From Pseudomonas viridiflava (lineage in GTDB: Bacteria > Pseudomonadota > Gammaproteobacteria > Pseudomonadales > Pseudomonadaceae), in the NCBI RefSeq assembly GCF_900580675.1, contig NZ_UTBG01000026.1:1-64000 (forward strand): DNA of 64,000 bases, read 5' to 3'. Position 1 is the stretch's first letter. Every line of letters begins with the position of its first letter. A program made the position numbers and the translations under genes. This document shows positions 1 through 64,000 of this stretch, piece by piece. The notes under the pieces were generated by a model, which was given only the letters and a program-made list of their open reading frames with translations, was not told the DNA's origin and ran no database searches.

Positions 1-444
1 CTGCGTCATGACAAGCCGGCTCGCAAGGTCATCAAGCAGGCGCGATGGCTGTTGCTGCGCAATCCGCAGAATCTGAAAACGCCGGAACAACAGGTTCGTT
101 TGCAGGATTTGTTGGCGGCCAACCAATCGCTGATGACGGTTTATTTGATGAAGGCTGAGCTCAAAACGCTCTGGACAGCGAGCGCTGCCTGGGCTTGGCG
201 ATCGGCCTGGAAACAATGGCTGCGCCATGCTCATGAAAGCGAAATACCGGCTCTGGTGCAGTTTGCCAAACGGCTAAAGGGTTACTGGCGAGGCATCGTA
301 AGCCGGGTGCGCTGGCCGATGCATACCGGTCAGTTGGAAGGAATAAACAATCGAATAAAGGTGATCAAGCGGATGGCGTACGGTTACCGGGATAGCGAGT
401 TCTTTTTCATGAAGATCAAGAGCGTCTTTCCCGGTAATCCGTGA
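1..444 (+). CDS. ISL3-family transposase, C-terminal part (5' end outside window)
   Basis: The frame is open from base 1, so only the last 147 codons are visible. The C-terminus, with the phrase GQLEGINNRIKVIKRMAYGY and the following residues through SEFFFMKIKS, is the typical end of the DDE transposases of the ISL3 family (formerly IS204/IS1001/IS1096/IS1165). The final catalytic Glu is expected in the LEG motif. The protein would cut and paste its own insertion sequence. The stop lies six bases before the apparent right end of the element at 450. The rest of the gene, and whether it is intact, cannot be judged here. Family assignment is fairly sure; the specific IS name is not known. Confidence 0.85.
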   Translation: MRHDKPARKVIKQARWLLLRNPQNLKTPEQQVRLQDLLAANQSLMTVYLMKAELKTLWTASAAWAWRSAWKQWLRHAHESEIPALVQFAKRLKGYWRGIVSRVRWPMHTGQLEGINNRIKVIKRMAYGYRDSEFFFMKIKSVFPGNP

Positions 445-5745: not shown

Positions 5746-7143
5746 ATGAGTACCGCAGCCCGAGTAGCCCCAGCATTTCCCGACAGCATCTTTCGCGCCT
5801 ATGACATCCGTGGCGTGGTGCCCAAGACCCTGACCGCCGAAACCGCCTACTGGATCGGCCGCGCCATTGGCGCCCAGAGCCTGGCCCAGGGCGAGCCGAA
5901 CGTGTCGGTCGGCCGCGATGGTCGTTTGTCCGGCCCGGAACTGGTGGAGCAACTGATCCAGGGCCTGGCCGACAGCGGTTGCCATGTCAGCGACGTGGGC
6001 CTGGTGCCGACACCGGCGCTGTACTACGCGGCCAACGTACTGGCTGGCAAGTCCGGGGTGATGTTGACCGGCAGCCATAACCCGTCGGACTACAACGGTT
6101 TCAAGATTGTCATCGCCGGCGACACCCTCGCCAACGAACAGATCCAGGCCCTGCACACGCGCCTGAAAACCAACGACCTGACCAGCGGCGAAGGCAGCGT
6201 CACCAAAGTCGACATCCTGCAGCGCTACGCTGACGAAATCACGGGCGACGTCAAACTCGCGCGCCGCCTCAAAGTAGTGGTGGACTGCGGCAATGGCGCG
6301 GCCGGCGTGATCGCGCCGCAACTGCTCGAAGCCCTGAACTGTGAAGTGATCCCGCTGTTCTGCGATGTTGACGGCCACTTCCCGAACCATCACCCGGACC
6401 CGGGCAAGCCTGAGAACCTGGTGGACCTGATCGCCAAGGTCAAGGAAACCGGGGCTGACGTAGGCCTGGCCTTCGACGGTGACGGCGACCGCGTTGGCGT
6501 GGTGACTGAAACCGGCGAGATCGTGTTCCCGGATCGCCTGCTGATGCTGTTTGCCCGCGACGTCGTCGCGCGCAATGCCAACGCCGAAATCATTTTCGAC
6601 GTGAAATGCACCCGCCGCCTGACTCCGCTGATCAAGGAATACGGCGGTCGCCCGCTAATGTGGAAGACCGGTCACTCGTTGATCAAAAAGAAAATGAAGG
6701 AAACCGGCGCGCTGTTGGCCGGCGAAATGAGCGGCCACGTGTTCTTCAAGGAGCGCTGGTTCGGGTTTGACGACGGCATTTACAGCGCCGCTCGCCTGCT
6801 GGAGATCCTCAGCAAGGAAAAATCCACCGCGCAGGCGCTGTTTGAGACCTTCCCGAATGATATTTCTACGCCAGAGATCAATATCCATGTGACCGAGGAG
6901 AGCAAATTCAGCATCATTGACGCACTGCACGATGCGCAATGGGGTGAAGGCGCTGACCTGACCACCATTGATGGTGTGCGAGTCGATTACGCCAAAGGCT
7001 GGGGCCTGGTTCGCGCGTCCAACACCACACCGGTGCTGGTCCTGCGTTTCGAGGCGGATACCGAGGCTGAGTTGCAGCGCATCAAGGACGTGTTCCACGC
7101 CCAGTTGAAACGTGTTGCCCCTGATCTCCAATTACCGTTCTGA
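5746..7143 (+). CDS. algC: Phosphomannomutase / phosphoglucomutase
   Basis: The start at 5746 (MSTAARVAPAFPDSIF) matches the AlgC N-terminus and gives 465 aa; an in-frame upstream start at 5728 adds six residues without family support. The enzyme interconverts mannose and glucose 6- and 1-phosphates for alginate, LPS and rhamnolipid precursors. Key motifs are the phosphoserine loop TGSHNPSDYNG, the metal loop DGDGDRVG, the sugar-binding GEMSGH and the phosphate-binding RASNTTP. It lies 19 bases before argB, so the two may share a transcript. Confidence 0.96.
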   Translation: MSTAARVAPAFPDSIFRAYDIRGVVPKTLTAETAYWIGRAIGAQSLAQGEPNVSVGRDGRLSGPELVEQLIQGLADSGCHVSDVGLVPTPALYYAANVLAGKSGVMLTGSHNPSDYNGFKIVIAGDTLANEQIQALHTRLKTNDLTSGEGSVTKVDILQRYADEITGDVKLARRLKVVVDCGNGAAGVIAPQLLEALNCEVIPLFCDVDGHFPNHHPDPGKPENLVDLIAKVKETGADVGLAFDGDGDRVGVVTETGEIVFPDRLLMLFARDVVARNANAEIIFDVKCTRRLTPLIKEYGGRPLMWKTGHSLIKKKMKETGALLAGEMSGHVFFKERWFGFDDGIYSAARLLEILSKEKSTAQALFETFPNDISTPEINIHVTEESKFSIIDALHDAQWGEGADLTTIDGVRVDYAKGWGLVRASNTTPVLVLRFEADTEAELQRIKDVFHAQLKRVAPDLQLPF

Positions 7144-7162
7144 TTTTTTACCGGAGCCCTGA

Positions 7163-8068
<906 letters not shown>

Positions 8069-46278: not shown

Positions 46279-46794
46279 GTGGTAACTGAAATCGCTTCCC
46301 GCGACCGTCTGCAACCGTCCCTGCTGGACCGGTTGACCGACGACGACCCAACCAACCCCAAGGAAAGCGCCGACAAACGCGTGCTGTCCCTGACCCAATT
46401 GAAAGCCTCGGTTCTGCGCGACCTGGCGTGGCTGCTCAACACCACGTCGTTGCTGGATGCCGATGCCACGCTGCACACCCCGGCCGGTACGTCGGTGGTC
46501 AATTACGGCCTGCCGGCCCTCGCGGGCAACAGCGTTTCCAGCGTGGATATCAAAGCCCTGGAAGCCCTGATCTACCAGGCAATCGCCACCTTTGAGCCAC
46601 GCATTTTGCGCCACACCCTGCGCGTCAAAGCCCGTGTCGGCCATGGCGAAATGAACCACAACGCGCTGAGTTTCGAGATCGAAGGCGACCTGTGGGCGCA
46701 GCCGGTGCCATTGCGCCTGTTGCTGCAAACCGACCTCGACCTGGAATCCGGCCATGTACGTGTGGTCAACGCCGACCAGCGGAGGCGCCCATGA
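46279..46794 (+). CDS. tssE: T6SS baseplate subunit TssE
   Basis: A 171-aa gp25-like lysozyme-fold protein of the baseplate wedge. The GTG at 46279 is preferred since GGAG at 46267 is then eight bases away; a TTG three bases earlier is possible. [17 protein letters not shown] is the typical start of TssE, and [20 protein letters not shown] follows. The C-terminal segment ([20 protein letters not shown], first residue approximate) matches the gp25 domain. It overlaps tssF by four bases. tagJ, expected between hcp and tssE in HSI-I, is missing. Confidence 0.92.
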
Positions 46795-48650
46795 ACCCGC
46801 GCCTGCTGGAGCTGTATAACCAGGAACTGCACCACGTGCGCGAAAGCGCCGCCGAGTTCGCCAAGGAATACCCGAAGATCGCCAGTCGGCTGACCCTGTC
46901 CGGTATGGACTGCGCCGACCCGTACGTCGAACGCCTGCTCGAAGGCTTTGCCTACCTGACTGCCCGCGTGCAGCTCAAGCTCGACGCCGAGTACCCGACC
47001 TTCACCCATAACCTGCTGGAAATCGCCTACCCGCACTACCTGGCGCCGACCCCGTCGATGACCGTGGTGCAATTGCAGACCGACCCGGATGAAGGCTCCC
47101 TGGCCAGTGGTTTTCCGCTGCCGCGCGACACGGTGTTGCGCGCCGCGCTGGGCCGCGAAACCCAGACCTGCTGCGAGTACCGCACCGCACACCCAGTGAC
47201 CCTGTGGCCGTTGCAGGTCAGTAACGCCGAGTACTTCGGCAACCCCGCCGCCGTGCTTGGGCGCCTGGCCGCCAGCGAGCCGAAGGCCAAGGCCGGCTTG
47301 CGCCTGACCCTGCGCACCGGCGCCGAATTGCCGTTCAACAGCCTCGACCTCGACAGCCTGCCGCTGTACCTCAGCGGTGCCGACGAGCAGCCGTTCCGCC
47401 TCTACGAACAACTGTTGGGCAACGCCTGCGCAGTGTTCGCGCGCAAGCCCGGCGGCGACTGGGTCGAGCGCCTGCCGCAGGATGCGTTGCGCTCACGCGG
47501 TTTTGACGACGCCGACGCCGCGATGCCGGTGGTGGCGCGTGCCTTCCAGGGCTATCGCCTGTTGCAGGAGTACTTCGCCCTGCCCCACCGTTTCCTGTTC
47601 GTCGAGTTCGCCGAGCTGAGCCGCGCGGTCAAACGCTGCGACGGCCAGGAACTGGAACTGATCGTGCTGTTTGACCGCCACGAGCCGAGCCTGGAAGGCA
47701 GCGTCGGCGCGGCGCAGTTCATGCCGTTCTGCACCCCGGCGATCAACCTGTTCCCCAAGCGCGTGGACCGTATTCACTTGTCCGACCGGGTCAACGAACA
47801 CCATGTGATCGCCGACCGCACGCGGCCGATGGATTTCGAGATTCACTCGCTGAGCGGCATCACCGGCCACGGCACCGGGCCGGAGCAACCGTTTCTGCCG
47901 TTCTATGCGGTGCGCGACCCATCCCGCTATGGCCGCGACCAAGCCTATTACACCGTGCGCCGCGAGCCGCGCGTGTTGTCCAGCGACCAGCGCCGCAACG
48001 GGCCGCGCTCCACCTATGTGGGCAGCGAAACCTTTGTCAGCCTGGTCGACAGCCAGCAAGCGCCGTACCGCCACGACCTGCGCCAGCTCGGCGTGACCGC
48101 GCTGTGCACCAACCGCGACTTGCCGCTGTTCATGAGCGTGGGCAACGGCAAGACCGACTTCACCCTCGCCGACAGCGCCCCGGTATTGGCCGTGCGCTGC
48201 GTCGCCGGCCCGAGTCGCCCACGTGCCAGCCATGCGCATGACGCCAAGGCCTGGCGCCTGATCAGCCAGTTGTCGCTCAACTACTTGTCCCTTAGCGAGC
48301 AAGGCCAGGGCGCCGGCGCCTTGCGCGAACTGTTGCGCCTGTATGGCGACAGCAACGACGCCGCGCTGCAATTGCAGATCGAAGGCCTGCGCGAAGTCAG
48401 CAGCAAAGCCGTGACCCGGCGCTTGCCGATGCCCGGCCCCATCGTGTTTGGCCGCGGCTTGGAAATCACATTGGAATTCGATGAAAACGCGTTTCGCGGC
48501 ACCGGCGTGTTCCTGCTCGGTGCAGTGCTGGAACGCTTCCTGGCGCGCTACGTGTCGATCAACAGTTTTACCGAGACGGTGATCCGTACCACCGAACGCG
48601 GCGAGATCATGCGATGGAAAGCCAAACCCGGGCGGCGTCCGACCCTGTGA
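46791..48650 (+). CDS. tssF: T6SS baseplate subunit TssF
   Basis: The start at 46791 ([20 protein letters not shown]) overlaps the tssE stop as ATGA; length 619 aa. The family signature [20 protein letters not shown] and [20 protein letters not shown] are intact. TssF and TssG form the wedge core of the baseplate (VCA0110/ImpG family). Its 3' end overlaps tssG by 37 bases, an arrangement conserved in T6SS clusters. Confidence 0.95.
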
Positions 48651-49657
48651 ACACACTGGATGCGATGCATCAGGAACCCTGGGAATACGATTTCTTCCAG
48701 GCGCTGCGGCGTATCGAGTGCGAATCGCCGGAGTTGCCGCGCTTGGGCCATTCCCTGCGCCTGGCGGACGACCCGCTGCGCCTGGGGCAACAGGCCGATT
48801 GCACCTTCGCCCCGGCCACATTGGCCTCGGTCGACCCCGGTGGCGATGGCAAACCCGCGCGGCTGGAGCAGTTTTTCTTCGGCCTCGGCGGCCCTAACGG
48901 CCCGCTGCCGCTCCACATCACCGAGTACGTGCGCGAGCGCCAGCGCAACAACGCCGACAGCACCAGCAAACAGTTCCTGGATATTTTCCACCACCGCCTG
49001 CTGAGCCTGTTCTACCGGGCCTGGGCCGAAGCACGGCCGACGGTCAGCCACGACCGCCCGGACGACGATTACTGGTCCGCACGCCTGGCCGCGCTGAGCG
49101 GTCGGGGCATGCCAAGCCTGCTGAACCAGGGGCTGATTCCCGACACGGCGAAGCTGCATTACAGCGGCCATCTGTCGGCACAAACCCGTTATCCGGACGG
49201 TTTGAAGGCGATCCTCGGCGAGTATTTCGGCCTGCCGGTGGAGATCGAAGAATACGTCGGCCAATGGCTCGAACTGCCCGAGCGCAGCCGCGTGGGTGTC
49301 AGCGCCAACCAGCTGGGCGTGGACTTTTGCCTGGGCAGCCACGTGTGGGACCGCCAGCACAAATTCCGCATCCGCCTCGGCCCGCTCAAGCTCGATGACT
49401 ACATGGGCATGCTGCCCGGCAGCCAGCCATTCAATGAGCTGGTGGCGTGGGTGGCCGAGTACCTGGGCCATGAACTGGACTGGGACCTGAACCTGATTCT
49501 GCAACAACCTGAAGTCCCGAAACTGCAGCTCAACGGCCAGTTCCGCCTGGGCTTCAACACCTGGCTCGGCCAACCCGAGCATGACGCCAACGACCTAATC
49601 CTGGCCCGGCATTACGCCGACCACGCCACCACCTCAAGGAATCCAGAGCATGGGTGA
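48614..49657 (+). CDS. tssG: T6SS baseplate subunit TssG
   Basis: A 347-aa protein of the VCA0111/ImpH family, with PWEYDFFQALRRIECESPEL, FFFGLGGPNGPLPLHITEYV and LDIFHHRLLSLFYRAW as hallmarks. It makes the TssEFG wedge with TssF. The ATG at 48614 lies inside tssF in another frame, the stop overlaps clpV by eight bases, and the gene is translationally coupled on both sides. Confidence 0.95.
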   Translation: MESQTRAASDPVNTLDAMHQEPWEYDFFQALRRIECESPELPRLGHSLRLADDPLRLGQQADCTFAPATLASVDPGGDGKPARLEQFFFGLGGPNGPLPLHITEYVRERQRNNADSTSKQFLDIFHHRLLSLFYRAWAEARPTVSHDRPDDDYWSARLAALSGRGMPSLLNQGLIPDTAKLHYSGHLSAQTRYPDGLKAILGEYFGLPVEIEEYVGQWLELPERSRVGVSANQLGVDFCLGSHVWDRQHKFRIRLGPLKLDDYMGMLPGSQPFNELVAWVAEYLGHELDWDLNLILQQPEVPKLQLNGQFRLGFNTWLGQPEHDANDLILARHYADHATTSRNPEHG

Positions 49658-52313
49658 AATCAGTCGCGCCGCACTGTTCGGCAAACTCAACAGCGTGGCC
49701 TACAAGGCCATCGAAGCCGCTACCGTGTTCTGCAAGCTGCGGGGCAACCCGTACGTGGAACTGGCCCACTGGTTTCACCAGTTGCTGCAATTGCAGGACT
49801 CGGACCTGCACCGCATCATCCGCCAGTTCAACGTCGAGCCGGCGCGCCTGGCCCGTGACCTGACCGAAGCCCTGGATCGCCTACCGCGTGGCTCGACGTC
49901 GATTACCGACCTGTCGTCCCACGTGGAGGAAGCCGTGGAGCGCGGCTGGGTCTACGGCAGCCTGATGTTCGGCGAAAGCCAGGTACGCACCGGCTACCTG
50001 GTGCTGGGTATTTTGAAGACGCCGAGCCTGCGCCATGCCTTGCTGGGTTTGTCCGGGGAGTTCGACAAGATCAAGGCCGAGGCCCTGAGCGAGCGCTTTG
50101 ACGAATACGTCGGCGATTCGCCAGAGAATGCATTGAGCGCAAGTGATGGTTTCAACGCCGGCGCGGTGCCGGGCGAAGCCAGCGGCGCCATGGCCCCAAG
50201 CGCGATGGGCAAGCAGGAAGCGCTCAAGCGCTTCACCGTCGACCTGACCGAGCAGGCGCGCAGCGGCAAGCTCGACCCGATTGTTGGCCGTGACGAAGAG
50301 ATCCGCCAGTTGGTGGATATCCTGATGCGTCGTCGCCAGAACAACCCGATCCTCACCGGTGAAGCCGGCGTAGGCAAGACTGCCGTGGTTGAAGGCTTCG
50401 CCCTGCGCATCGTCGCCGGCGACGTGCCGCCCGCGCTCAAAGACGTTGAGCTGCGCAGCCTCGACGTGGGCCTGCTGCAAGCCGGCGCGAGCATGAAAGG
50501 CGAGTTCGAACAGCGCCTGCGCCAAGTCATCGAAGACGTCCAGGCCTCGCCGAAGCCGATCATCCTGTTTATCGACGAAGCCCACACCCTGGTGGGTGCC
50601 GGTGGCGCCGCCGGCACTGGTGACGCAGCCAACCTGCTCAAACCTGCCCTGGCGCGCGGCACTTTGCGCACGGTGGCCGCGACCACTTGGGCCGAGTACA
50701 AAAAGCACATCGAGAAAGACCCCGCCCTCACCCGCCGCTTCCAGGTGGTGCAAGTCGCCGAGCCGTCGGAAGACAAGGCACTGCTGATGATGCGCGGCGT
50801 GGCCTCGACCATGGAAAAACACCATCAGGTGCAGATCCTCGATGAAGCGCTGGAAGCCTCGGTGAAGCTGTCCCACCGCTACATCCCGGCGCGCCAGTTG
50901 CCGGACAAATCCGTGAGCCTGCTGGACACCGCCTGCGCCCGCGTCGCCATCAGCCTGCACGCGGTGCCGGCCGAAGTGGACGACAGCCGGCGCCGCATCG
51001 AAGCGCTGGAAACCGAGCTGCAAATCATCGCCCGCGAGCATGCCATCGGCATCGCGATTGGCGCGCGCCAGAGCAACAGCGAAGCCTTGCTGACAGCCGA
51101 ACGCGAACGGCTGGCAACCCTGGAAAGCCGCTGGGCTGAGGAAAAGGCTTTGGTGGATGAGCTGCTCGCCACGCGTGCGACGCTGCGCGAGAAAGTCGGT
51201 GAAGTCGACAGCGGCAACGATGAGCTGCGTGCACAGCTGGTCGACCTGCAACAGCGCCTGACTGCCCTGCAAGGCGAAACCCCGCTGATCCTGCCGACCG
51301 TGGATTACCAGGCCGTGGCCTCGGTGGTCGCCGACTGGACCGGCATCCCGGTCGGCCGCATGGCGCGCAACGAACTGGAGACGGTGCTCAACCTCGACCA
51401 GCACCTGAAGAAACGCATCATCGGCCAGGACCATGCGCTGCAGATGATCGCCAAGCGCATCCAGACCTCCCGCGCCGGCCTCGACAACCCGAGCAAGCCG
51501 ATCGGCGTGTTCATGCTCGCCGGCACCTCGGGCGTGGGTAAGACCGAAACCGCCCTGGCCCTGGCCGAAGCCATGTACGGCGGCGAGCAGAACGTGATCA
51601 CCATCAACATGAGCGAGTTCCAGGAAGCCCATACGGTGTCGACCCTCAAGGGCGCGCCACCGGGCTACATCGGCTACGGCGAAGGCGGCGTGCTGACCGA
51701 AGCGGTCCGGCGCAAACCCTACAGCGTGGTGCTGCTGGACGAGGTGGAAAAAGCCCACCCGGACGTGCATGAGATCTTCTTCCAGGTGTTCGACAAGGGC
51801 GTGATGGAAGACGGCGAAGGCCGGGTCATCGACTTCAAGAACACCCTGATCCTGCTGACCACCAACGCCGGTACGGAGCTGATTTCCCGGGTCTGCAAAG
51901 ACCCGGCGAACATCCCAGAGCCCGAGGAAATCGCCAAGGCCCTGCGCCAGCCGTTGCTGGAGATTTTCCCGCCGGCCTTGCTTGGCCGTTTGGTGACGAT
52001 TCCGTACTACCCGCTGAGCGACGAGATGCTCAAGGCGATCACTCGCCTGCAACTCAACCGCATCAAGAAGCGCGTGGAGAATACCCACAAAGTCGCTTTC
52101 GATTACGACGACGCGGTGGTCGACTTGATCGTCTCGCGCTGCACCGAAACCGAGAGCGGTGGCCGCATGATCGACACCATCCTCACCAACAGCCTGCTGC
52201 CGGACATGAGCCGCGAGTTCCTCACGCGCATGCTCGAAGGCAAGGCGCTGGCGGGGGTGCGGATCAGCAGCCGGGATAACGAATTGCACTACACCTTCAG
52301 CGACGCCGAGTGA
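49650..52313 (+). CDS. clpV: T6SS sheath-recycling AAA+ ATPase ClpV (TssH)
   Basis: An 887-aa Hsp100/ClpB-type ATPase that pulls contracted TssBC sheath apart for reuse. Domains: N-terminal sheath-binding domain (about 1-160), AAA1 with Walker A GEAGVGKTAVVEG and LFIDEAHTLVGAG, a middle coiled-coil (about 420-530), and AAA2 with GTSGVGKTETALALAEAMYG and a C-terminal domain. The MGEISRAALFGKLNSVAYKA start identifies ClpV rather than ClpB. A REPIN separates it from vgrG. Confidence 0.95.
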   Translation: MGEISRAALFGKLNSVAYKAIEAATVFCKLRGNPYVELAHWFHQLLQLQDSDLHRIIRQFNVEPARLARDLTEALDRLPRGSTSITDLSSHVEEAVERGWVYGSLMFGESQVRTGYLVLGILKTPSLRHALLGLSGEFDKIKAEALSERFDEYVGDSPENALSASDGFNAGAVPGEASGAMAPSAMGKQEALKRFTVDLTEQARSGKLDPIVGRDEEIRQLVDILMRRRQNNPILTGEAGVGKTAVVEGFALRIVAGDVPPALKDVELRSLDVGLLQAGASMKGEFEQRLRQVIEDVQASPKPIILFIDEAHTLVGAGGAAGTGDAANLLKPALARGTLRTVAATTWAEYKKHIEKDPALTRRFQVVQVAEPSEDKALLMMRGVASTMEKHHQVQILDEALEASVKLSHRYIPARQLPDKSVSLLDTACARVAISLHAVPAEVDDSRRRIEALETELQIIAREHAIGIAIGARQSNSEALLTAERERLATLESRWAEEKALVDELLATRATLREKVGEVDSGNDELRAQLVDLQQRLTALQGETPLILPTVDYQAVASVVADWTGIPVGRMARNELETVLNLDQHLKKRIIGQDHALQMIAKRIQTSRAGLDNPSKPIGVFMLAGTSGVGKTETALALAEAMYGGEQNVITINMSEFQEAHTVSTLKGAPPGYIGYGEGGVLTEAVRRKPYSVVLLDEVEKAHPDVHEIFFQVFDKGVMEDGEGRVIDFKNTLILLTTNAGTELISRVCKDPANIPEPEEIAKALRQPLLEIFPPALLGRLVTIPYYPLSDEMLKAITRLQLNRIKKRVENTHKVAFDYDDAVVDLIVSRCTETESGGRMIDTILTNSLLPDMSREFLTRMLEGKALAGVRISSRDNELHYTFSDAE

Positions 52314-52469: not shown

Positions 52470-54410
52470 ATGCCATTCAACCAAGCCTCACGCCTGGCCA
52501 AGATCACCAGCCCCCTCGGGCCGGATGTGCTGTTGCTCAATGAAATGGGCGGCGGTGAAGAGCTGGGCAGGCTGTTCAACTACGAGCTGCAGCTGACGTC
52601 CCTGGACGCCAACATCGACCTCAACCAGTTGCTTGGCAAGCCGATGAGCGTGGGCCTGCAACTGGCGGACGGTGGCGAGCGGCATTTCCACGGCATCGTC
52701 GCGCGGTGCAGCCAGAACGTCGACCGGGGCCAGTTCGCCAGCTACCAGGTGACCTTGCGCCCGTGGTTCTGGCTGCTGAGTCGCACCTCGGATTGCCGGA
52801 TTTTTCAGAACCTGAGCATTCCGCAGATCATCAAGCAGGTGTTCCGCGACCTCGGCTTTTCGGACTTCGAAGACGCCCTGAGCCGGCCTTACCGCGAGTG
52901 GGAATACTGCGTGCAGTACCGCGAGACCAGCTTCGATTTCGTCAGCCGCTTGATGGAACAGGAAGGCATCTACTACTTCTTCCGCCATGAGCAGGACCGC
53001 CATGTGCTGGTGCTGGCCGACACCTATGGCGCGCACACCACGGTGCCGGGCTATGCGTCGATCCCGTATTACCCCAAGGACGAGCAACAGCGCGAACGCG
53101 ACCACATGCACAACTGGCACCTGGCGCAGGAAGTGCAGCCGGGTTCGCTGGAGCTCAACGATTACGACTTCCAGCGGCCCAGCGCCAGCATCGACGTGCG
53201 CTCGGCAATGCCGCGCCCGCACACCGCCGGCGACTACCCGCTGTACGACTACCCCGGCACCTACGTGCAAAGCGAGGACGGCGAACACTACGCGCGCACC
53301 CGCATCGAAGCCCTGCAAACCCTGCATGAGCAGATTGAGTTCGCCGGCAATGCGCGGGGCCTGGGTTCGGGCCACTTGTTCAGCCTCACCGGCTTCAGCC
53401 GCCAGGACCAGAACCGCGAATACCTGATCGTCGGCATCCGCTATTACATCGTCCAGGAAAGCCTGGAAAGCGGCGGTGGCTCGGGGTCGGCGCAGTTCGA
53501 AAGCAGCCTGACCTGCATCGACGCCCAACAAAGCTTCCGCCCGCTCGCCAGCACCCACCGCCCTATCGTCAAAGGCCCGCAGACCGCATTGGTGGTCGGC
53601 CCCAAAGGCGAGGAAATCTGGACCGACCAGTACGGCCGCGTGAAGGTGCACTTCTACTGGGACCGTCACGACCAATCCAACGAAAACAGCTCGTGCTGGA
53701 TTCGTGTCTCGCAGTCATGGGCCGGAAAAAACTGGGGTTCGATGCAGATCCCACGGATCGGCCAGGAAGTGATTGTGAGTTTCCTGGAAGGTGACCCGGA
53801 CCGGCCGATCATCACCGGGCGCGTGTACAACGCCGAGCAAACCGTGCCTTACGACCTGCCGGAAAACGCAACCCAGAGCGGCATGAAAAGCCGCTCGAGC
53901 AAGGGCGGTACGCCGGCCAACTTCAATGAAATCCGCATGGAGGACAAGAAGGGGTTGGAGCAGCTGTATATCCACGCCGAGCGTAACCAGGACATCGTGG
54001 TGGAAGTGGATGAAAGCCACTCCGTCGGGCACGACCGCAACAAGAGCATCGGCCACAACGAGACGGTGACCATCGGTAATAACCGCACGCGCATCGTCAA
54101 GCAGGAGGACGTGCTCCTGGTGGGCCAGCGCAAAACCGACAGCATCAGCCAGAGCTACGTCATCGAAGTGGGTGAAAACCTGCGCCTGGTGTGTGGCGAA
54201 AGCATTCTGGAATTGAACGCCAGCGGGCAGATCAACCTCACCGGGGTGAACATCAGTTTCTATGCCAGCGGCGATGCCCAGATCAACACCAAGGGCGTAC
54301 TGCACCTGAACAACGGCCACGGCCCCGACGCGACTCCCGGGGACCAGGGCATCAAAGACAGCATCGACGCCACTATCAAGGCCGTTTTCCCTGCGCCCAA
54401 AAGCTCCTGA
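52470..54410 (+). CDS. vgrG: T6SS spike protein VgrG
   Basis: The start at 52470 (MPFNQASRLAKITSPLGPDV) gives 646 aa. The N-terminal gp27-like part (about 1-370) and the gp5 OB domain (GRVKVHFYWDRHDQSNENSS, SWAGKNWGSMQIPRIGQEVI) lead to a beta-helix needle (about 480-600; NQDIVVEVDESHSVGHDRNK). There is no extra catalytic C-terminal domain, so it works as a carrier. It is followed after 15 bases by the Eag chaperone and the RHS effector, which its tip should carry. Confidence 0.95.
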   Translation: MPFNQASRLAKITSPLGPDVLLLNEMGGGEELGRLFNYELQLTSLDANIDLNQLLGKPMSVGLQLADGGERHFHGIVARCSQNVDRGQFASYQVTLRPWFWLLSRTSDCRIFQNLSIPQIIKQVFRDLGFSDFEDALSRPYREWEYCVQYRETSFDFVSRLMEQEGIYYFFRHEQDRHVLVLADTYGAHTTVPGYASIPYYPKDEQQRERDHMHNWHLAQEVQPGSLELNDYDFQRPSASIDVRSAMPRPHTAGDYPLYDYPGTYVQSEDGEHYARTRIEALQTLHEQIEFAGNARGLGSGHLFSLTGFSRQDQNREYLIVGIRYYIVQESLESGGGSGSAQFESSLTCIDAQQSFRPLASTHRPIVKGPQTALVVGPKGEEIWTDQYGRVKVHFYWDRHDQSNENSSCWIRVSQSWAGKNWGSMQIPRIGQEVIVSFLEGDPDRPIITGRVYNAEQTVPYDLPENATQSGMKSRSSKGGTPANFNEIRMEDKKGLEQLYIHAERNQDIVVEVDESHSVGHDRNKSIGHNETVTIGNNRTRIVKQEDVLLVGQRKTDSISQSYVIEVGENLRLVCGESILELNASGQINLTGVNISFYASGDAQINTKGVLHLNNGHGPDATPGDQGIKDSIDATIKAVFPAPKSS

Positions 54411-54425
54411 CGAGACCTGTTTGCC

Positions 54426-54860
54426 ATGACGTACCGAATCAACGAATTCCAGTTTCAATTGCCTGAAGGCGAGCTGCAGGACGCGTCGATCAACATCCTC
54501 AAGTTCGCCGAATTGGGCACTTCCCTGATCATCAGCCGTAGCCTGCTCAACGAAGGCGAAACCCTGCACAGCAACTTCAATGACCAGCTCCAGCGCCTGG
54601 AAAAACAGGTGCAGGACCTGCGCTGCCAACCGAGCGTCAGCGTGCGTTTGGGTGCCGCCCAAGAGGTGGAAGGTATCGAGCTGCGCAGCCAGTTCAACAA
54701 GGGCAATGACAAGGTGTTCCAGTACCAGCTGGCGCTGGTATTGCCGGGCACGCGCAAGATGATGGCGTTGAGTTATGTGAAGGCTGACAAGCTGGGTGAT
54801 GCCGAGGCGGCGCACTGGGCATTGATAAAAGACTCGCTGTCGTTCGACGTGCCTCAGTGA
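54426..54860 (+). CDS. Eag-type effector chaperone (DUF1795/DcrB family)
   Basis: A 144-aa cytosolic protein, MTYRINEFQFQLPEGELQDA..., of the DUF1795 family. The LPEG-D-S-N pattern and the C-terminal half with HWALIKDSLSFDV fit Eag (EagR/EagT6) chaperones. Such proteins shield the hydrophobic N-terminal membrane segments of prePAAR effectors and help load them on VgrG. It lies between vgrG and the first RHS gene, 12 bases before the latter. It may serve both RHS proteins because their N-termini are nearly alike. Confidence 0.85.
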   Translation: MTYRINEFQFQLPEGELQDASINILKFAELGTSLIISRSLLNEGETLHSNFNDQLQRLEKQVQDLRCQPSVSVRLGAAQEVEGIELRSQFNKGNDKVFQYQLALVLPGTRKMMALSYVKADKLGDAEAAHWALIKDSLSFDVPQ

Positions 54861-57800: not shown

Positions 57801-59297
57801 CTGCATCAGATCAACCTGGATGGGCAGGTCATCAGTGATTTCGAGCGCGACCGGCTGCACCGCGAGATGCTGCGCACCCAGGGACGTGTCAGCACCCGCA
57901 GCGAATATGATCGTTGCGGCCGGATTCGTGCTCGCCAGCGTCGGCAACAGGGCCAGTCGGTACTGCTGCCAACAGTACAGACCCAGTATGGCTATGACAC
58001 CAGCGATCAATTGGTGGAACGCGTCTCCAGCCAGCCCGACGCAGCGCACCGCCAACTGCTGCACTACGACGCTACCGGGCGCATTCTTGCCAGCCAGGAC
58101 AGCCTTCAGGGCCAGCGCGAAGCGTTCGCCTATGACCCGGCCGCCAATTTACTCGACAGTACGGGGCAAGTGGCCCACAACCAATTACTGGTCTATCGCG
58201 ACAAGCGCTACCGTTACGACGGTTTTGGCCGGTTAGTTGAAAAACGCAGCGCTCGGCGCGGCACCCAGCGCTTCAGCTATGACGCTGAGCAACGCCTGGC
58301 CCAGGTACATAATGACGACGGTTCTGTGGTCAAGATGACATACGATCCGCTCGGTCGACGTGTCGCCAAGACTACGGTCGACCGCCACGGCGCGCCGGTG
58401 AGCCAAACCTGTTTTACCTGGGATGCGATGCAACTGCTGCAGGAGCACTGTGGCCCGCAGACCAGCCTTTATCTGTACGCCGACGAGGGTTATGAACCCC
58501 TGGCCCGCGTTGATGGCCTCGGCGACCAGCAAAAGGTGCGCTACTGCCACAACGACCTCAACGGCCTGCCCGAGCAACTCTCGGAAAGCGACGGCCATAC
58601 GGTGTGGAAAGCGCGCTACGAAGTCTGGGGCAATACCGTCGAGGAAGTGCGCGAACCGTATTACATCGAAGAGCAGAACCTGCGGTTTCAGGGCCAATAC
58701 CTGGATCGCGAGACCGGGCTGCACTACAACACCCTGCGCTTTTATGACCCGGACATCGGCCGATTCACCACGCCCGACCCAATAGGCCTGGCGGGTGGCC
58801 TTAACCTCTACCAATACGCGCCCAACCCGGTGAGCTGGATCGACCCACTGGGGCTGATGAAGTGCTCAAGCCCGCCAAAGGGGCGCAAGGTCAACCGTAC
58901 GGTTTACCGCTTCGAGGAACCGGGACGGATCGGCACGACCTGGCAGGCACACAAGTGGAATGTGGACTCCCGACACCGCTATACGGATAAAGGTCTGGGC
59001 GGCGTGTATGGCGCCAACTCACGCAAGACCGCGCTGGGCGAAGTCACACATTGGGACGTCGACCTGTCGACGCGCGTCCTGGTCAGCAAAAAGGTGCAAC
59101 TCAACAACGTGCTGGACTTGACGCGCGCCGACGTGCGCAAACAATTGGGCGTGTCACTCAAAAGCATTACGGGCAACAAGTACACCCAAACGCACCAAAT
59201 CGGCAGCTGGGCAAAAGCCAATGGCTATGATGGAATTCTCGCGCCATCCGCGCGTAACCCAACCGGCAGCAACTTAATTTCTTTTGCAGGATTTTGA
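54873..59297 (+). CDS. prePAAR-PAAR-RHS T6SS effector with RES-like toxin tip
   Basis: A 1474-aa polymorphic toxin. Residues 1-25 carry a prePAAR motif (AARLGDGLSH, type AARxxDxxxH); about 26-75 are hydrophobic and would be shielded by the Eag chaperone and cross the target membrane. A PAAR domain follows (about 165-260; INGQPAVRSGDRSTCDATVV), which caps VgrG. The RHS repeats (about 310-1300) build a shell enclosing the toxin, ended by DPIGLAGGLNLYQYAPNPVS and WIDPLGL, the autocleavage and release region. The tip, residues 1329-1474, fits a RES domain: R1346 in VYRF, E1390 in ALGEVTHW, S1459 in ILAPSARNP. RES toxins destroy NAD+ or use it to modify targets. The immunity gene follows after two bases. 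Confidence 0.85.
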   Translation: MSDALLWAARLGDGLSHTSVMADILGGVLEVAANVAITALATAAVVAATGITVATGGLGACVLGAVVGVIVGMAMSKTGADKGLSTMCEGIGNALFPPTVMATILSGSTNTLINSIPAARAAGAVPSHVTPAGTESEAPTPDEAEEPGYLDMAKGFFSQMWRPTVATPAPGAVPKPLDLVTCTKHPPMPPQFLAEGSEKVTINGQPAVRSGDRSTCDATVVSAGLISPNVTIGGGSVVVREIRSGKTPGVGLAVTALMMLKGGKGKFLSNLPCMLLAGVNSFVVSQAMGALANAAMGSSNPVHASTGAKVLGGPEELDFALPGIMPIDWQRFYNSRDERREGLFGAGWSVSYEINVRLLPHPEGGEHLLYVDEQGRRIDMGFIPLGGAVFSAGEGLSVRRHLSGQLLIESADGLYRLFEPAPQDTSLLRLSQLGDRNDNRIYLDYDDNGQLRQLRDSFDLVRVELTYDSTWPSRISHIERLYPDQHREVLMHYTYDGCGDLAAVRQSNGQVKRRFAYDAGRRMTEHQLPGGLRCFYQWACVDKREWRVVRHWTDNGDAYTFDYELEAGITRITDGLERLSTRRWDARHQIIESIDALGRTWAFQWNDESQLLGATDPNGGHYQFSYDEAGNLSETIDPLGRSESTLWLEHWALPLVETDACGNAWQYRYDPRGNCISETDPMGHVTTYRHDAHGQVLEIIDARGASKTLRWTSQGQLSEHTDCSGLTTRLSYCKRGLLLTSTDALGERTRFAYDDQGRLTSKQLPDGRSEHYQRDASGQVIGYSDPAGHTTHFQHSPGGLLRERTDAHGRRVELSHDAYGRLLGLTNENGERYRFDWDAGDRLCLEQRLDGVIKRYAYDPLDNVTRVETAASSGTEDSIIHDLARDAAGRLTTKTTADGRTDYGYDELDQVTAITFTDHHGDQHSLGFGYDALGQLILEQSAGGRLEHHYDELGNLIQTQLPDGRWLNRLRYGSGHLHQINLDGQVISDFERDRLHREMLRTQGRVSTRSEYDRCGRIRARQRRQQGQSVLLPTVQTQYGYDTSDQLVERVSSQPDAAHRQLLHYDATGRILASQDSLQGQREAFAYDPAANLLDSTGQVAHNQLLVYRDKRYRYDGFGRLVEKRSARRGTQRFSYDAEQRLAQVHNDDGSVVKMTYDPLGRRVAKTTVDRHGAPVSQTCFTWDAMQLLQEHCGPQTSLYLYADEGYEPLARVDGLGDQQKVRYCHNDLNGLPEQLSESDGHTVWKARYEVWGNTVEEVREPYYIEEQNLRFQGQYLDRETGLHYNTLRFYDPDIGRFTTPDPIGLAGGLNLYQYAPNPVSWIDPLGLMKCSSPPKGRKVNRTVYRFEEPGRIGTTWQAHKWNVDSRHRYTDKGLGGVYGANSRKTALGEVTHWDVDLSTRVLVSKKVQLNNVLDLTRADVRKQLGVSLKSITGNKYTQTHQIGSWAKANGYDGILAPSARNPTGSNLISFAGF

Positions 59298-59299
59298 CC

Positions 59300-59581
59300 A
59301 TGCCACTTGAAGACGAATACCCCGGCGATGCCGATTGGCAAAGCACGGTAGCGCTGTACCGAGAAGACTATTTGGACGACGACGCGCACACCCTTGCGAA
59401 AGCCTTGGGCGGTGATCTTGACCTGGCCGTGGTACTGCGTGGCAAGCGAGGGCTAAAAGAAGGGTTGTGGTGGATCGACCGCAAAGTGCCCGCCCTGGAC
59501 AACGTGCGACCTGCCGACTGCCTTGAGGACCCCCGGCTGATCAAACGCCTCAGAACCGCATTGATGAGCATGCCTTACTGA
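59300..59581 (+). CDS. Putative immunity protein resembling the Xre-antitoxin C-terminal (DUF2384) domain
   Basis: The ATG at 59300 follows the RHS stop by two bases; length 93 aa. Residues about 1-28 are acidic (EDEYPGDAD, EDYLDDD). Residues about 29-93 look like the MbcA/ParS/Xre toxin-binding domain: LWWIDRKVPALDNVRPADCL fits the W-xxx-P-aL-g-rPl-ll core and is followed by an L-rich helix RLIKRLRTALMSM. The N-terminal helix-turn-helix of real Xre antitoxins is absent, so DNA binding is not expected. Together with the RES-like toxin tip this suggests direct plugging of the toxin active site in sister cells. Assignment is by pattern only. Confidence 0.7.
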   Translation: MPLEDEYPGDADWQSTVALYREDYLDDDAHTLAKALGGDLDLAVVLRGKRGLKEGLWWIDRKVPALDNVRPADCLEDPRLIKRLRTALMSMPY

Positions 59582-59626: not shown

Positions 59627-62600
59627 GTGTCTGACGCACTGTGGGCAGCCCGGATGGGCGATGCGCTGTCCCACACCTCGATGATGGCCGACATCCTCGG
59701 CGGGGTGCTGGAGGTGGCGGCCAATATCGCGATCACTGCCGTGGCGACCGCCGCGGTGGTTGCCGCTACCGGTATCACCGTGGCGACCGGCGGGCTCGGC
59801 TGCTTTCTGCTGGGCGCGGTGGTGGGCACGATTGTCGGCCTGGCCATGAGCAAGACCGGGGCGGACAAAGGGCTGACGAATTTATGCGACAGCTTCAGCA
59901 ATGCCCTGTTTCCGCCCACGGTGCAGGCAAACATTCTGACCGGCTCGACCAACACCCTCACCAACAACATTCCCGCTGCCCGTGCTGCAGGGGCGATCAG
60001 CTCGCATGTCACGCCGGCCGGCACCGAGCTGGAAGAAACCCCGCCTGAACCCGAATCGCAAGCCAGTTACCTGGACATGGCCGAGAGCTTCTTCTCGCAG
60101 ATGTGGCGCTCGACAGTAGCGACGCCCGCCCCCGGCGCCGTGCCCAAGCCGCTGGACCTGGTGGTGTGCATGAAGCACCCGCCGATGCCGCCGCAATTTC
60201 TTGCCGAAGGTTCGGAAAAGGTCACGATCAACGGCCAACCTGCCGTGCGCAGCGGTGACCGCAGTACGTGCGATGCGACGGTGGTGTCGTCCGGGTTGAT
60301 TTCATCCAACGTGACCATCGGCGGCGGCCCGGTGGTGGTGCGCGAGATTCGCAGCGGCAAGACTCCGGGCGTCGGCCTGGCGGTAACGGCGTTGCTGATG
60401 CTCAAGGGTGGCAAGGGCAAGTTCTTCAGCAAGCTGCCGTGCATGCTGATCGGCGGGGCAACCTCCATGGCGGTCAGCAGCGCGATGGGCGCCATGGCCA
60501 ATGCCGCCATGGGCTCGTCGAACCCGGTGCATGCAGCGACTGGCGCCAAGGTGCTGGGCGATGTCGATGAACTGGATTTCGTGCTGCCCGGCATCCTTCC
60601 GATTGAATGGCAGCGCTTCTACAACAGCCGTGACGAGCGCCAAGGCAGCCTGCTCGGCGCCGGTTGGAGCGTGGCCTATGAAGTCTGCGTCGAGATCCAG
60701 CCCCACCCCGAAGGCGGTGAAACGCTGGTCTACACCGACGAGCAGGGCCGCCCGATCGACATGGGCTCGATCCCTTTAGGCGGCGCCGTGTTCAGCGCTG
60801 GCGAAGGGCTCTCCGTCCGGCGCCACCTCAACGGCCAGTTGCTGATTGAAAGCGACGACGGCCTGTACCGCCTGTTTGAACCCGGCGCTACCCCGTCCCT
60901 GCTGCGCCTGACCCAGCTGGGCGACCGCAACGACAACCGTATCCATCTGGACTACGACGTCGAAGGGCGCCTGGTGCGCCTGCGCGATACGTTCGACCTG
61001 GTGCAGGTTGAGTTGGTCCGCGAACAGGGCCATCTGGCGCGTATCGAACGCCTTTACCCGGATCAACATCGCGAAGTGCTCGTCAGCTATGGCTTCGACG
61101 CAGCGGGCAGTTTGGCGCAAGTGCGCGACGCAACCGGCCAGGTGCAACGGCGTTTCGCCTACGACAGGGGGCGGCGCATGGTGGAGCATCAATTGCCCAC
61201 CGGTTTGCGCTGCTTCTATGACTGGGCACTGGTTGAAGGCCTGGAATGGCGTGTGGTCCGCCACTGGACCGATGAGGGCGACGCCTACCAGTTCGACTAC
61301 GACTTGCAGGCCGGTCTCACACGCATCACCGACGGGCTGCAGCGGATCAGCACCCGGCACTGGAACACTCAGCACCAGATCATTCAGTACAGCGACAACC
61401 TCGGCCAGACCTGGCTGTTCGAGTGGAACGACGAACGCCAACTGCTCAGCGCCACCGACCCGCAGGGCGGGCGCTATGCATACAGTTACGATGACAGCGG
61501 CAACCTGATCGGCGAAAGCGACCCGTTGGGGCGCAGCGACTCGACCTTGTGGCTGGAGCATTGGGCATTGCCGCTGGTGGAAACCGACGCCGCCGACAAC
61601 AGCTGGCAGTACCGTTACGACCCGCGCGGTAACTGCATCGCCGAAACCGATCCGCTGGGCCACATCACCCGTTTTCGCTATGACGCCCACGGCCAGGTCG
61701 TGGAAATTGTCGACGCCACCGGCAAAAGCAAACAGCTGCGCTGGAACCCGTTCGGGCAACTGGTCGAGCATATCGACTGCTCGGGCTACCCGACGCGCTT
61801 CAGCTACGACGAGCGCGGGTATTTACAGGTCATCACCGACGCCCTCGGTGAACGTACACAGTTCAGCTACGACGCTCAGGGGCGCTTGCTAAGCAGCCAT
61901 TTGCCGGACGGGCGCACCGAGCACTATCAGCGCGACGTCAGCGGGCAGTTGCTGGGCTACACCGACCCGGCCGGGCACACCACGCTCTATCAGCACAACC
62001 GCCGCGGCCAGGTGCGCCAGCGGACCGACGCCCATGGGCGGCAGGTTCAGTTCGGCTATGACAGCTACGGACGGTTGGAGGCGCTGGTCAACGAGAACGG
62101 TGAAAGCTATCGGTTTGCGTGGGATGCCGGGGATCGGCTGACAGAACAGCAAGACCTCGACGGCAGCGCCAAGCGTTACGACTACGACTTGCTGGACAAC
62201 ATCACCGCAGTGACTGCCGTTCCGGCGCCTTACGGCAACGGCTTGGCGCTGGTGCCGGAGACGCCACCCGCCCCGATCATTCACCGATTGGAACGCGATG
62301 CGGTCGGCCGGCTGATTGCCAAGACCACCGACGATGGCCGCACCGACTACACCTACGATGCAGTCGACCAACTCACCGCCGTCACCTTCACCGACGTGCA
62401 GGGCAATGCCCACGCCTTGGGCTTCGCCTACGACGCCCTCGGTCAATTGCTGGCCGAACAGAGTTCGGCGGGTGCCCTGCAACACCACTACGACGAACTC
62501 GGCAACCTGATCCAGACGCAACTGCCGGATGGCCGCTGGCTCAACCGCCTGTACTACGGCAGCGGCCATCTGCACCAGGTCAACCTCGACGGGCAGGTCA

Positions 62601-64000
62601 TCAGCGACTTCGAGCGCGACCGTCTGCACCGCGAAGTGCTGCGCACCCAGGGCCAGCTCAGCACCCGCAGCGAATACGACCGCAGCGGCCGCCTGCGCGC
62701 ACGCCAACGCCGCCACACCAGCCAGCCATCGTTGATGCCGGCGGCGGCGCAAAAGCAGTTCGAGTACGACCCCGCCGACAACCTGATCGGCAAACTCGAC
62801 CAGCAACCCGCCGCGCAACACCGCCAACTGCTGCACTACGACGCCACTGGCCGCATCATCGCCAGCCAGGACAGCCTGCACGGCCAGCGCGAAACCTTCG
62901 CCTACGACGCCGCCGCCAACCTGCTCGACGGCCCGCAGCCGGGCGCCGGGCTGGTGGTGCACAACAAACTGCTGACCTATCAGGACAAGCGTTACCGCTA
63001 CGACGCGTTTGGCCGAATGATCGAAAAACGCAGCGCCAAACGCGGCGTACAGCGGTTTGCCTATGACGCCGAAAGCCGCTTGGTTGAAGTGCGCAATGAA
63101 AACGGCAGCGTGGTCAGGATGGCCTACGACCCGTTGGGGCGGCGTATCGAAAAAACCGAACACGGCAGCGATGGCTATCCGCTGGGCGAAACCCGCTTCA
63201 TGTGGGACGGGCTGCGCTTATTGCAGGAGCATAAACACCGCCAGAGCAGCCTCTATGTGTACGCCGATGAGGGCTACGAGCCCTTGGCGCGAGTGGACGG
63301 CGCCGGGCCGCTGCAAAAGACTCGCTACTACCACAACGACCTCAACGGGTTGCCGGAACAGCTGACCGAAGCTGACGGGCATGACGTCTGGCGCGCGACC
63401 TATCGGGTGTGGGGCACCACCGTCGAGGAAGTACGCGAGCCTTATTACATTGAAGAGCAGAACCTGAGATTTCAGGGACAGTACCTGGACCGGGAGACGG
63501 GGCTGCATTTCAATACGTTCAGGTTTTATGATCCGGATGTGGGGCGGTTTACGACGCCGGATCCGATTGGGTTGGATGGAGGAATCAACCTCTACCAGTA
63601 CTCACCGAACCCCATTGGCTGGATAGATCCGCTCGGCTGGGAAACCTGCAGGCTGTCTAAAGGCGATAAAGCAAAGATGGGGCCTAAACCTCAAGCACAC
63701 GAGATGACGAGTCCCCATCGTCACCATATCGTGCGCGAAAAGGCACCTAAAAATTGGACAGATAGCAATCGCCGATATGTGGCACATGCCCAAGGCATTC
63801 TCAAGAAATTCGGTATCGGCTTGAATGATGACCTGCGCAACTTTGTATGGGCACCCAACGGTAGCGGAAACCACAAAATTGCCGCATCACGAAAAGTCTC
63901 AACAACGCTCGCGGAAGCCCGCAAAGGCGGAAAAAGCAAGGTGATTGAGGCATTAAACTCCATGGGCGAAAAAATGAGAAACGGTGAATTTTTAGATGAC
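59627..64000 (+). CDS. prePAAR-PAAR-RHS T6SS effector with HNH/AHH-like nuclease tip (3' end outside window)
   Basis: The frame is open from the GTG at 59627 to the last base (1458 codons, no stop), so the gene is incomplete here. The N-terminus (SDALWAARMGDALSH) repeats the prePAAR motif, the hydrophobic segment, the PAAR domain (INGQPAVRSGDRSTCDATVV) and the RHS shell of the upstream gene with few changes. The core ends at DPIGLDGGINLYQYSPNPIG and WIDPLGW; the tip from residue 1339 is unrelated to the first effector's. It is AT-richer and carries SPHRHHIVREKAP (H1366-H1367-I), NDDLRNFVWAPN and GNHK, a pattern of AHH/HNH-superfamily nucleases. The immunity gene would lie beyond the window. 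Confidence 0.82.
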   Translation, partial: MSDALWAARMGDALSHTSMMADILGGVLEVAANIAITAVATAAVVAATGITVATGGLGCFLLGAVVGTIVGLAMSKTGADKGLTNLCDSFSNALFPPTVQANILTGSTNTLTNNIPAARAAGAISSHVTPAGTELEETPPEPESQASYLDMAESFFSQMWRSTVATPAPGAVPKPLDLVVCMKHPPMPPQFLAEGSEKVTINGQPAVRSGDRSTCDATVVSSGLISSNVTIGGGPVVVREIRSGKTPGVGLAVTALLMLKGGKGKFFSKLPCMLIGGATSMAVSSAMGAMANAAMGSSNPVHAATGAKVLGDVDELDFVLPGILPIEWQRFYNSRDERQGSLLGAGWSVAYEVCVEIQPHPEGGETLVYTDEQGRPIDMGSIPLGGAVFSAGEGLSVRRHLNGQLLIESDDGLYRLFEPGATPSLLRLTQLGDRNDNRIHLDYDVEGRLVRLRDTFDLVQVELVREQGHLARIERLYPDQHREVLVSYGFDAAGSLAQVRDATGQVQRRFAYDRGRRMVEHQLPTGLRCFYDWALVEGLEWRVVRHWTDEGDAYQFDYDLQAGLTRITDGLQRISTRHWNTQHQIIQYSDNLGQTWLFEWNDERQLLSATDPQGGRYAYSYDDSGNLIGESDPLGRSDSTLWLEHWALPLVETDAADNSWQYRYDPRGNCIAETDPLGHITRFRYDAHGQVVEIVDATGKSKQLRWNPFGQLVEHIDCSGYPTRFSYDERGYLQVITDALGERTQFSYDAQGRLLSSHLPDGRTEHYQRDVSGQLLGYTDPAGHTTLYQHNRRGQVRQRTDAHGRQVQFGYDSYGRLEALVNENGESYRFAWDAGDRLTEQQDLDGSAKRYDYDLLDNITAVTAVPAPYGNGLALVPETPPAPIIHRLERDAVGRLIAKTTDDGRTDYTYDAVDQLTAVTFTDVQGNAHALGFAYDALGQLLAEQSSAGALQHHYDELGNLIQTQLPDGRWLNRLYYGSGHLHQVNLDGQVISDFERDRLHREVLRTQGQLSTRSEYDRSGRLRARQRRHTSQPSLMPAAAQKQFEYDPADNLIGKLDQQPAAQHRQLLHYDATGRIIASQDSLHGQRETFAYDAAANLLDGPQPGAGLVVHNKLLTYQDKRYRYDAFGRMIEKRSAKRGVQRFAYDAESRLVEVRNENGSVVRMAYDPLGRRIEKTEHGSDGYPLGETRFMWDGLRLLQEHKHRQSSLYVYADEGYEPLARVDGAGPLQKTRYYHNDLNGLPEQLTEADGHDVWRATYRVWGTTVEEVREPYYIEEQNLRFQGQYLDRETGLHFNTFRFYDPDVGRFTTPDPIGLDGGINLYQYSPNPIGWIDPLGWETCRLSKGDKAKMGPKPQAHEMTSPHRHHIVREKAPKNWTDSNRRYVAHAQGILKKFGIGLNDDLRNFVWAPNGSGNHKIAASRKVSTTLAEARKGGKSKVIEALNSMGEKMRNGEFLDD

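Follow-up and report, generated by a model that had tools for sequence, protein, structure and literature searches.

Among the closest described relatives of the system reported here are the RES-Xre toxin-antitoxin (TA) modules, reported in 94% of Pseudomonas syringae genomes (PMC8790059). The DUF2384 domain of the Pseudomonas putida Xre antitoxin is known to interact with the RES toxin (PMC12204516), and the C-terminal helix of the antitoxin NatR is described as reaching into the active site of the toxin NatT and keeping that site occluded (PMC11535050). That RES is common to TA systems and to polymorphic toxins was already printed in 2012 (PMC3482391), and a candidate immunity protein for a RES-tipped Rhs effector, Tfi2, was characterised in 2021 as having “no homologues or recognizable features” (PMC7970981). 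Here we analyse a stretch of 64,000 nucleotides from Pseudomonas viridiflava (positions 1 to 64,000 of contig NZ_UTBG01000026.1; “the window”), in which a small gene directly follows the gene for a PAAR-RHS protein with a RES domain as its C-terminal tip, within a type VI secretion system (T6SS) locus. The small protein is likely to be the cognate immunity protein of this upstream Rhs-RES effector, by way of a diverged Xre/MbcA/ParS toxin-binding domain at approximately residues 40-93, an interpretation that is well supported by sequence profiles and by the predicted fold.

The small protein and DUF2384

The stretch 59300-59581 is a genuine gene. Its open reading frame (ORF) has an ATG at 59300 and a stop codon at 59579-59581, and encodes 93 amino acids (aa), of which WWIDRKVPALDNVRPADCL represents residues 57-75; the protein is acidic, with 18 D+E against 13 K+R. 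Searching 298 Pseudomonas genomes gave 28 matches in 26 genomes. Twenty of these are near-full-length copies of at least 64% identity, carried by 18 genomes, and the other eight comprise one relative with 38% identity (L020) and seven short fragments or doubtful matches. Three short C-terminal fragments (L021, L022 and L023) are preceded by the kinds of gene that stand before intact copies elsewhere, and are apparently decayed copies. The window gene was compared with 11 copies for the ratio of nonsynonymous to synonymous substitution rates (dN/dS). Ten comparisons give ratios of 0.08-0.18, values that are only rough because dS is 1.4-2.3 in them, and the eleventh (L003) has no value, its dS being saturated; five other pairs of copies have ratios of 0.17-0.33. 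No match to the 93-aa protein was found in plasmids by tblastn.

For profile comparisons, an alignment of 19 sequences was used, made of the 20 near-full-length copies minus the near-duplicates L002 and L004, plus L020, with the seven fragments and doubtful matches omitted. At E <= 1, 14 of the 19 members match PF09722 (Xre_MbcA_ParS_C, i.e. DUF2384; best E 1e-4) and 15 match the NCBIfam RES/Xre antitoxin model NF049845 (best E 1.3e-4), L020 giving the best value in both cases. The matches to the antitoxin models sit in the C-terminal half of the profile (59-106 of 112; 77-127 of 133) in all six members scanned singly. We compared the alignment by hhalign with a DUF2384 profile built from 30 domains (from 30 loci of 71 PF09722 matches), and found a probability of 94.9% and a score of 39.5, with columns 44-95 aligned on domain positions 1-50. 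The match runs co-linearly through the entire DUF2384 domain and takes in its W, PAL and P..L positions. Leaving out L020, the most divergent member, lowers the probability to 83.6% and the score to 29.3, which none of 200 column shuffles of the same reduced alignment reached (maximum 18.7), the reversed profile scoring 10.7. Judged by these profiles, the DUF2384 likeness of the small protein exceeds chance.

L020, which lies at 7109-7573 of locus L086, is the member nearest to DUF2384; by eye, neither a RES nor an RHS gene was seen among the ORFs of its 16-kb stretch. DUF2384 proteins lacking a helix-turn-helix (HTH) are not unique to this family: L089 (6431-6694) and L091 (4754-5020) encode such proteins, 87-88 aa long, next to genes judged TniQ/TnsD-like on visual inspection, and possibly represent a separate use of the domain.

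The predicted fold points in the same direction. The AlphaFold2 (AF2) model of the 93-aa protein, built from 19 sequences, is almost wholly helical, with a predicted local distance difference test score (pLDDT) of 88.6 and a predicted template modelling score of 0.78. Chains of RES TA complexes (6fkg, 6d0h, 8qnl/8qnq, 8gug, 9r35 and 6gw6), assigned as antitoxins by their length, account for 12 of the 28 rows in a Foldseek search with this model, among them the eight at the top. In VIA-align, which re-examined the 50 chains supplied by Foldseek, seven entries have Z scores of 4.8-6.8 and all are RES TA complexes, with the next row at 2.5; residues 38-93 superpose on 8gug_B 90-146 with Z 6.7 and a root mean square deviation of 1.7 over 56 aligned residues. 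A Foldseek search of viral structures gave 56 matches, none at E <= 0.001, two low-ranked rows being annotated as Xre antitoxins. With moderate scores, the small protein is predicted to have the fold of RES-module antitoxins.

The N-terminal segment is a different matter. The AF2 model places helices at residues 3-6 (short), 10-24 and 27-35. Pfam and NCBIfam searches with the window protein (E <= 10) and Pfam searches with each of the 19 aligned members (E <= 1) gave no HTH family. A remnant HTH in this half was considered and rejected, as its hhalign score of 8.8 against the corresponding half of 19 complete antitoxins equals what shuffling gives (median 8.9, maximum 17.5, n = 100), whereas the C-terminal half taken alone gives a probability of 89.4%. 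Because L020 retains the segment, it belongs to the small-protein family as such. The earlier note on this DNA, made from the letters alone, had seen in the protein an antitoxin “stripped” of its DNA-binding half. The absence of that half stands, but “replaced” fits at least as well, because the first ~38 residues form a helical segment that is conserved and specific to the family. Deletion of the HTH followed by addition of a segment, and capture of the C-terminal domain alone, are both compatible with these data.

The RES tip and the weight of the evidence

The RES assignment of the tip is clear, at 52.4 bits against a PF08808 cut-off of 23.2. Fifteen tips were found, and in all ten that were aligned R1346, R1369, Y1379, E1390, S1459 and N1467 are invariant. 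The active-site residues reported for NatT are R23, R82, Y93, S184 and N193 (PMC11535050); R1346 falls on R23 and N1467 on N193 by offset from the ends of the matched ranges (1..136 on 16..200), rather than by residue alignment. The tip model from nine aligned sequences has a mean pLDDT of 78.2. With it, Foldseek returns 12 rows at E <= 0.001, all of them chains of RES TA complexes that are toxins by their length (best E 1e-6), and VIA-align gives Z 10.6-15.3 to RES TA complexes, followed by PARP-2 at 5.9. A phmmer search with the tip found no match among PDB sequences up to E 10, so that it is Pfam and the fold that link the tip to RES toxins of solved structure. The tip is basic (20 K+R, 10 D+E), opposite to the small protein, and tblastn with the tip against plasmids gave six records, each annotated as RES family. 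Given their respective structural neighbours, the tip and the small protein indicate the two halves of the same RES TA complexes.

Several results weigh against this interpretation. The window protein on its own has no match in Pfam or NCBIfam (E <= 10) or in PADLOC (E <= 1). None of the six relatives scanned singly attains the PF09722 cut-off of 24.5 bits, the best reaching 22.7 and one having no match, and for this reason we describe the small protein as a diverged relative of PF09722 and not as a member. Unrelated NCBIfam models also match the aligned members weakly (NF009350 in 8 of 19, best E 0.008; NF040596 in 6 of 19, best E 0.072), and a profile search of PDB sequences placed ParS at the top with an E value of only 0.42, next to an unrelated chain at 0.46. 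No Foldseek row for the small protein is significant (E 0.35 or worse), and Z scores below 8, or below about 13 for helical bundles, may reflect a common arrangement only. On the toxin side, four out of five models of the tip are of poor quality (pLDDT 47-62), and R1346, the first active-site arginine, is not common to the two standalone RES proteins aligned, although the other five residues are.

These weak single-sequence scores, below curated cut-offs, and the middling fold scores are what one might expect if the protein were indeed an immunity protein but owed its DUF2384 likeness to convergence, a small helical protein having come to fit the same RES cleft, and not to common descent. We consider this quite unlikely, since the co-linear match takes in the whole domain together with its W, PAL and P..L positions, no shuffle came close to the observed score, the closest structural neighbours all come from one family, and one and the same model is matched by most of the aligned members, related to one another though these are. 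On the favoured reading, both partners would go back to a RES-Xre module.

The locus, gene order and distribution

The pair lies in a T6SS cluster that also includes IcmF, DotU and VipA (Table 1), and the locus has the layout of T6SS Rhs effector-immunity pairs: PAAR, RHS core, C-terminal toxin, small downstream gene and surrounding T6SS cluster. The DcrB-domain protein is a putative EagR chaperone by its place in the layout, which is as in PMC7970981. The acidic 93-aa protein, the RES tip on the RHS protein, the DUF2384-type partner, the absence of an HTH and the place in a T6SS operon, all put forward in the earlier note, are borne out by the ORF, domain, profile and fold analyses. The note would have counted the lack of any DUF2384 kinship, by profile or by structure, as a refutation, and the comparisons gave no such outcome. 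Its further proposals, that a TA pair was converted as a unit and that autoregulation was lost on account of the T6SS operon, are conjectures.

Table 1. Features of the Rhs-RES locus, with positions in the window
Feature	Position	Strand	Basis or remark
Putative immunity gene, DUF2384-like, 93 aa	59300..59581	+	begins 2 bp past RHS stop codon
Helical segment at the N terminus (residues 1-39), where antitoxins carry their DNA-binding half	59300..59416	+	AF2 model and hhalign
C-terminal toxin-binding-like domain, residues 40-93	59417..59578	+	hhalign and VIA-align
RES tip, RHS residues 1339-1474 (136 residues)	58887..59294	+	PF08808 E 7.8e-14
PAAR-RHS effector, 1474 aa	54873..59297	+	PAAR, DUF6531, RHS repeats, Rhs_assc_core
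DcrB-domain protein in EagR chaperone position	54426..54860	+	PF08786 E 6.8e-19
VgrG	52470..54410	+	Phage_GPD, Gp5_trimer_C, Phage_base_V
TssF, TssG, ClpB-type AAA ATPase in ClpV position	46692..52313	+	T6SS structural genes
Second PAAR-RHS protein, continues beyond window end	59627..64000	+	PAAR, DUF6531, RHS

The second RHS gene starts 45 bp after the small gene. By eye, its C-terminal residues differ among the window, L061-L065, L073 and L079, whereas the first position keeps RES.

The linkage of small gene and tip is close. The RES tip is found in 15 of the 298 Pseudomonas genomes, and in all 15 a match to the small gene starts no more than 20 bp after the end of the tip (in one of these, G182, the tip is truncated). 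Of 25 named loci, which are all from Pseudomonas, the search behind them finding close relatives only, 21 have an RHS-RES gene directly upstream and four do not (L067, L068, L070 and L085); some genes at these loci are hidden under longer ORFs of the opposite strand and were placed by match coordinates, L080 being checked separately. The four exceptions are surrounded by other RHS genes and by small genes, and in this they resemble orphan immunity genes. Likewise, 5 of the 20 near-full-length copies have no adjacent tip; copies L005, L006 and L027 are preceded by another small gene, and the neighbours of L017 could not be resolved. At L015 (1501-1776) the gene stands directly after a dcrB gene, as if an intervening RHS effector gene had been lost. 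Of the three copies in G182, one follows the truncated tip; copies without an intact RES effector include L005, L027, L028 (G182), L067, L068, L070 and L085. Near-identical copies occur in records of P. viridiflava and P. syringae.

A small gene directly downstream of an effector gene could also encode a chaperone or loading factor for the tip, and binding of either kind is only inferred. Nevertheless, we regard this as very unlikely: the DcrB protein already fills the chaperone position, and the copies that persist without a RES effector, both among the near-full-length set and among the named loci, are better explained as orphan immunity genes.

Gene order separates the pair from chromosomal modules. 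Among the matches listed, at least 34 of 61 DUF2384 domains in Pseudomonas genomes have a same-strand RES domain no more than 1.5 kb away. In all 34 chromosomal RES pairs so identified the antitoxin gene comes first; the remaining 27 DUF2384 rows have no RES partner among those matches. In the weapon version the order is reversed, effector then immunity, in 15 of 15 cases. That the pair still works as an internal TA module which merely happens to be fused to RHS is hardly credible, even though both partners are related to TA partners, given the missing HTH, the toxin-first order, the PAAR and T6SS context, and a gap of 2 bp with no room for an operator between the genes (no search was made for promoters within rhs).

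The survey was widened to the class. At E <= 0.01 the small-protein profile matched two of the 369 class genomes searched, that of the window and one with a weak match of 57 residues that has an internal stop, and the tip profile matched three of 321, that of the window and two in which the match is a standalone RES protein. PF08808 was matched at E <= 1e-4 in 77 of 229 genomes of the class, and among the matches listed only that of the window lies in a frame longer than 450 aa. In the window's whole assembly (G000) no PF09722 match was found at E <= 0.01, and the RHS tip is the only RES match among those listed, although P. syringae genomes mostly carry RES-Xre modules according to PMC8790059.

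Proposed function and comparison with known systems

We propose that the small protein most likely neutralises the RES tip in the way that Xre/MbcA/ParS antitoxins neutralise their toxins, binding it through residues ~40-93 as the favoured cognate immunity protein. By homology, the last helix should act like that of NatR, and the C-terminal helix (residues ~78-90) would be placed in the NAD-binding cleft of the tip as a plug of the active site. By analogy with the RES family, the toxicity of the tip would lie in loss of nicotinamide adenine dinucleotide (NAD). Having no DNA-binding half, and being encoded next after rhs in a vgrG-dcrB-rhs series, the small protein is probably made together with the effector and does not regulate itself.

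To our knowledge, the origin of most immunity proteins is not known. Here the toxin and the antidote of one T6SS pair can both be matched to partners in a single TA family, of which complexes have been solved, and the weapon appears to be tied to TA modules on the toxin side and on the antidote side alike. As both counterparts are recognisable and their complexes solved, the conversion of a self-regulating module into weapon and shield, together with possible cross-protection by chromosomal antitoxins, is directly testable. It is conceivable, if on the whole improbable, that the DUF2384 fold serves as a mobile inhibitor of RES toxins, passing from TA modules to secreted weapons and back, in which case chromosomal Xre/MbcA/ParS antitoxins could confer cross-immunity against injected RES effectors and orphan copies of the small protein could silence resident RES toxins.

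The connection between TA modules and interbacterial weapons that the earlier note drew appears on both sides of the pair, but its novelty was overstated, as the sharing of RES was printed in 2012 (PMC3482391) and an Rhs-RES effector with a 92-aa candidate partner in 2021 (PMC7970981). What is new is that the putative immunity protein is related to DUF2384 and lacks a DNA-binding half. Among the matches listed from the open-licence literature, no DUF2384-type T6SS immunity protein is named in titles or the openings of abstracts. PMC12457610 describes an ordinary-looking RES-Xre pair with an HTH, and RES/Xre terms occur in PMC13285283, PMC6612558 and PMC12356396 only as entries in reference lists.

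Another close counterpart is Tfe2/Tfi2 of Pseudomonas fluorescens F113, where vgrG1a and eagR1 precede the gene for a RES-tipped PAAR-Rhs protein, after which come a candidate immunity gene of 92 aa and another Rhs gene (PMC7970981). The P. brassicacearum copies of our family, L069 and L079, are also 92 aa long. The likeness to Tfi2 is one of layout and length; unlike Tfi2 as described in that paper, the window family is tied to DUF2384, so that a Tfi2-like protein once called featureless gains a family relationship. With the RES-Xre type II TA modules (MbcTA, ParST, NatRT, RES-Xre of P. putida and VPA0770/0769) the window pair shares a RES toxin and a DUF2384-type toxin-binding domain, but it differs from them in lacking the DNA-binding half, in having the toxin gene first and in the fusion of the toxin to a T6SS-type PAAR-RHS protein. 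With the Tox-RES polymorphic toxins it shares RES as the toxin domain of exported proteins, including RHS proteins, whereas the immunity protein listed for these is Imm51 and DUF2384 is given for the TA system only (PMC3482391). Finally, VbhTA/FicTA of Bartonella is an earlier case of a TA toxin that was joined to a secretion signal and serves as an interbacterial effector, although there the toxin is a Fic protein and the route is type IV secretion (PMC5675462).
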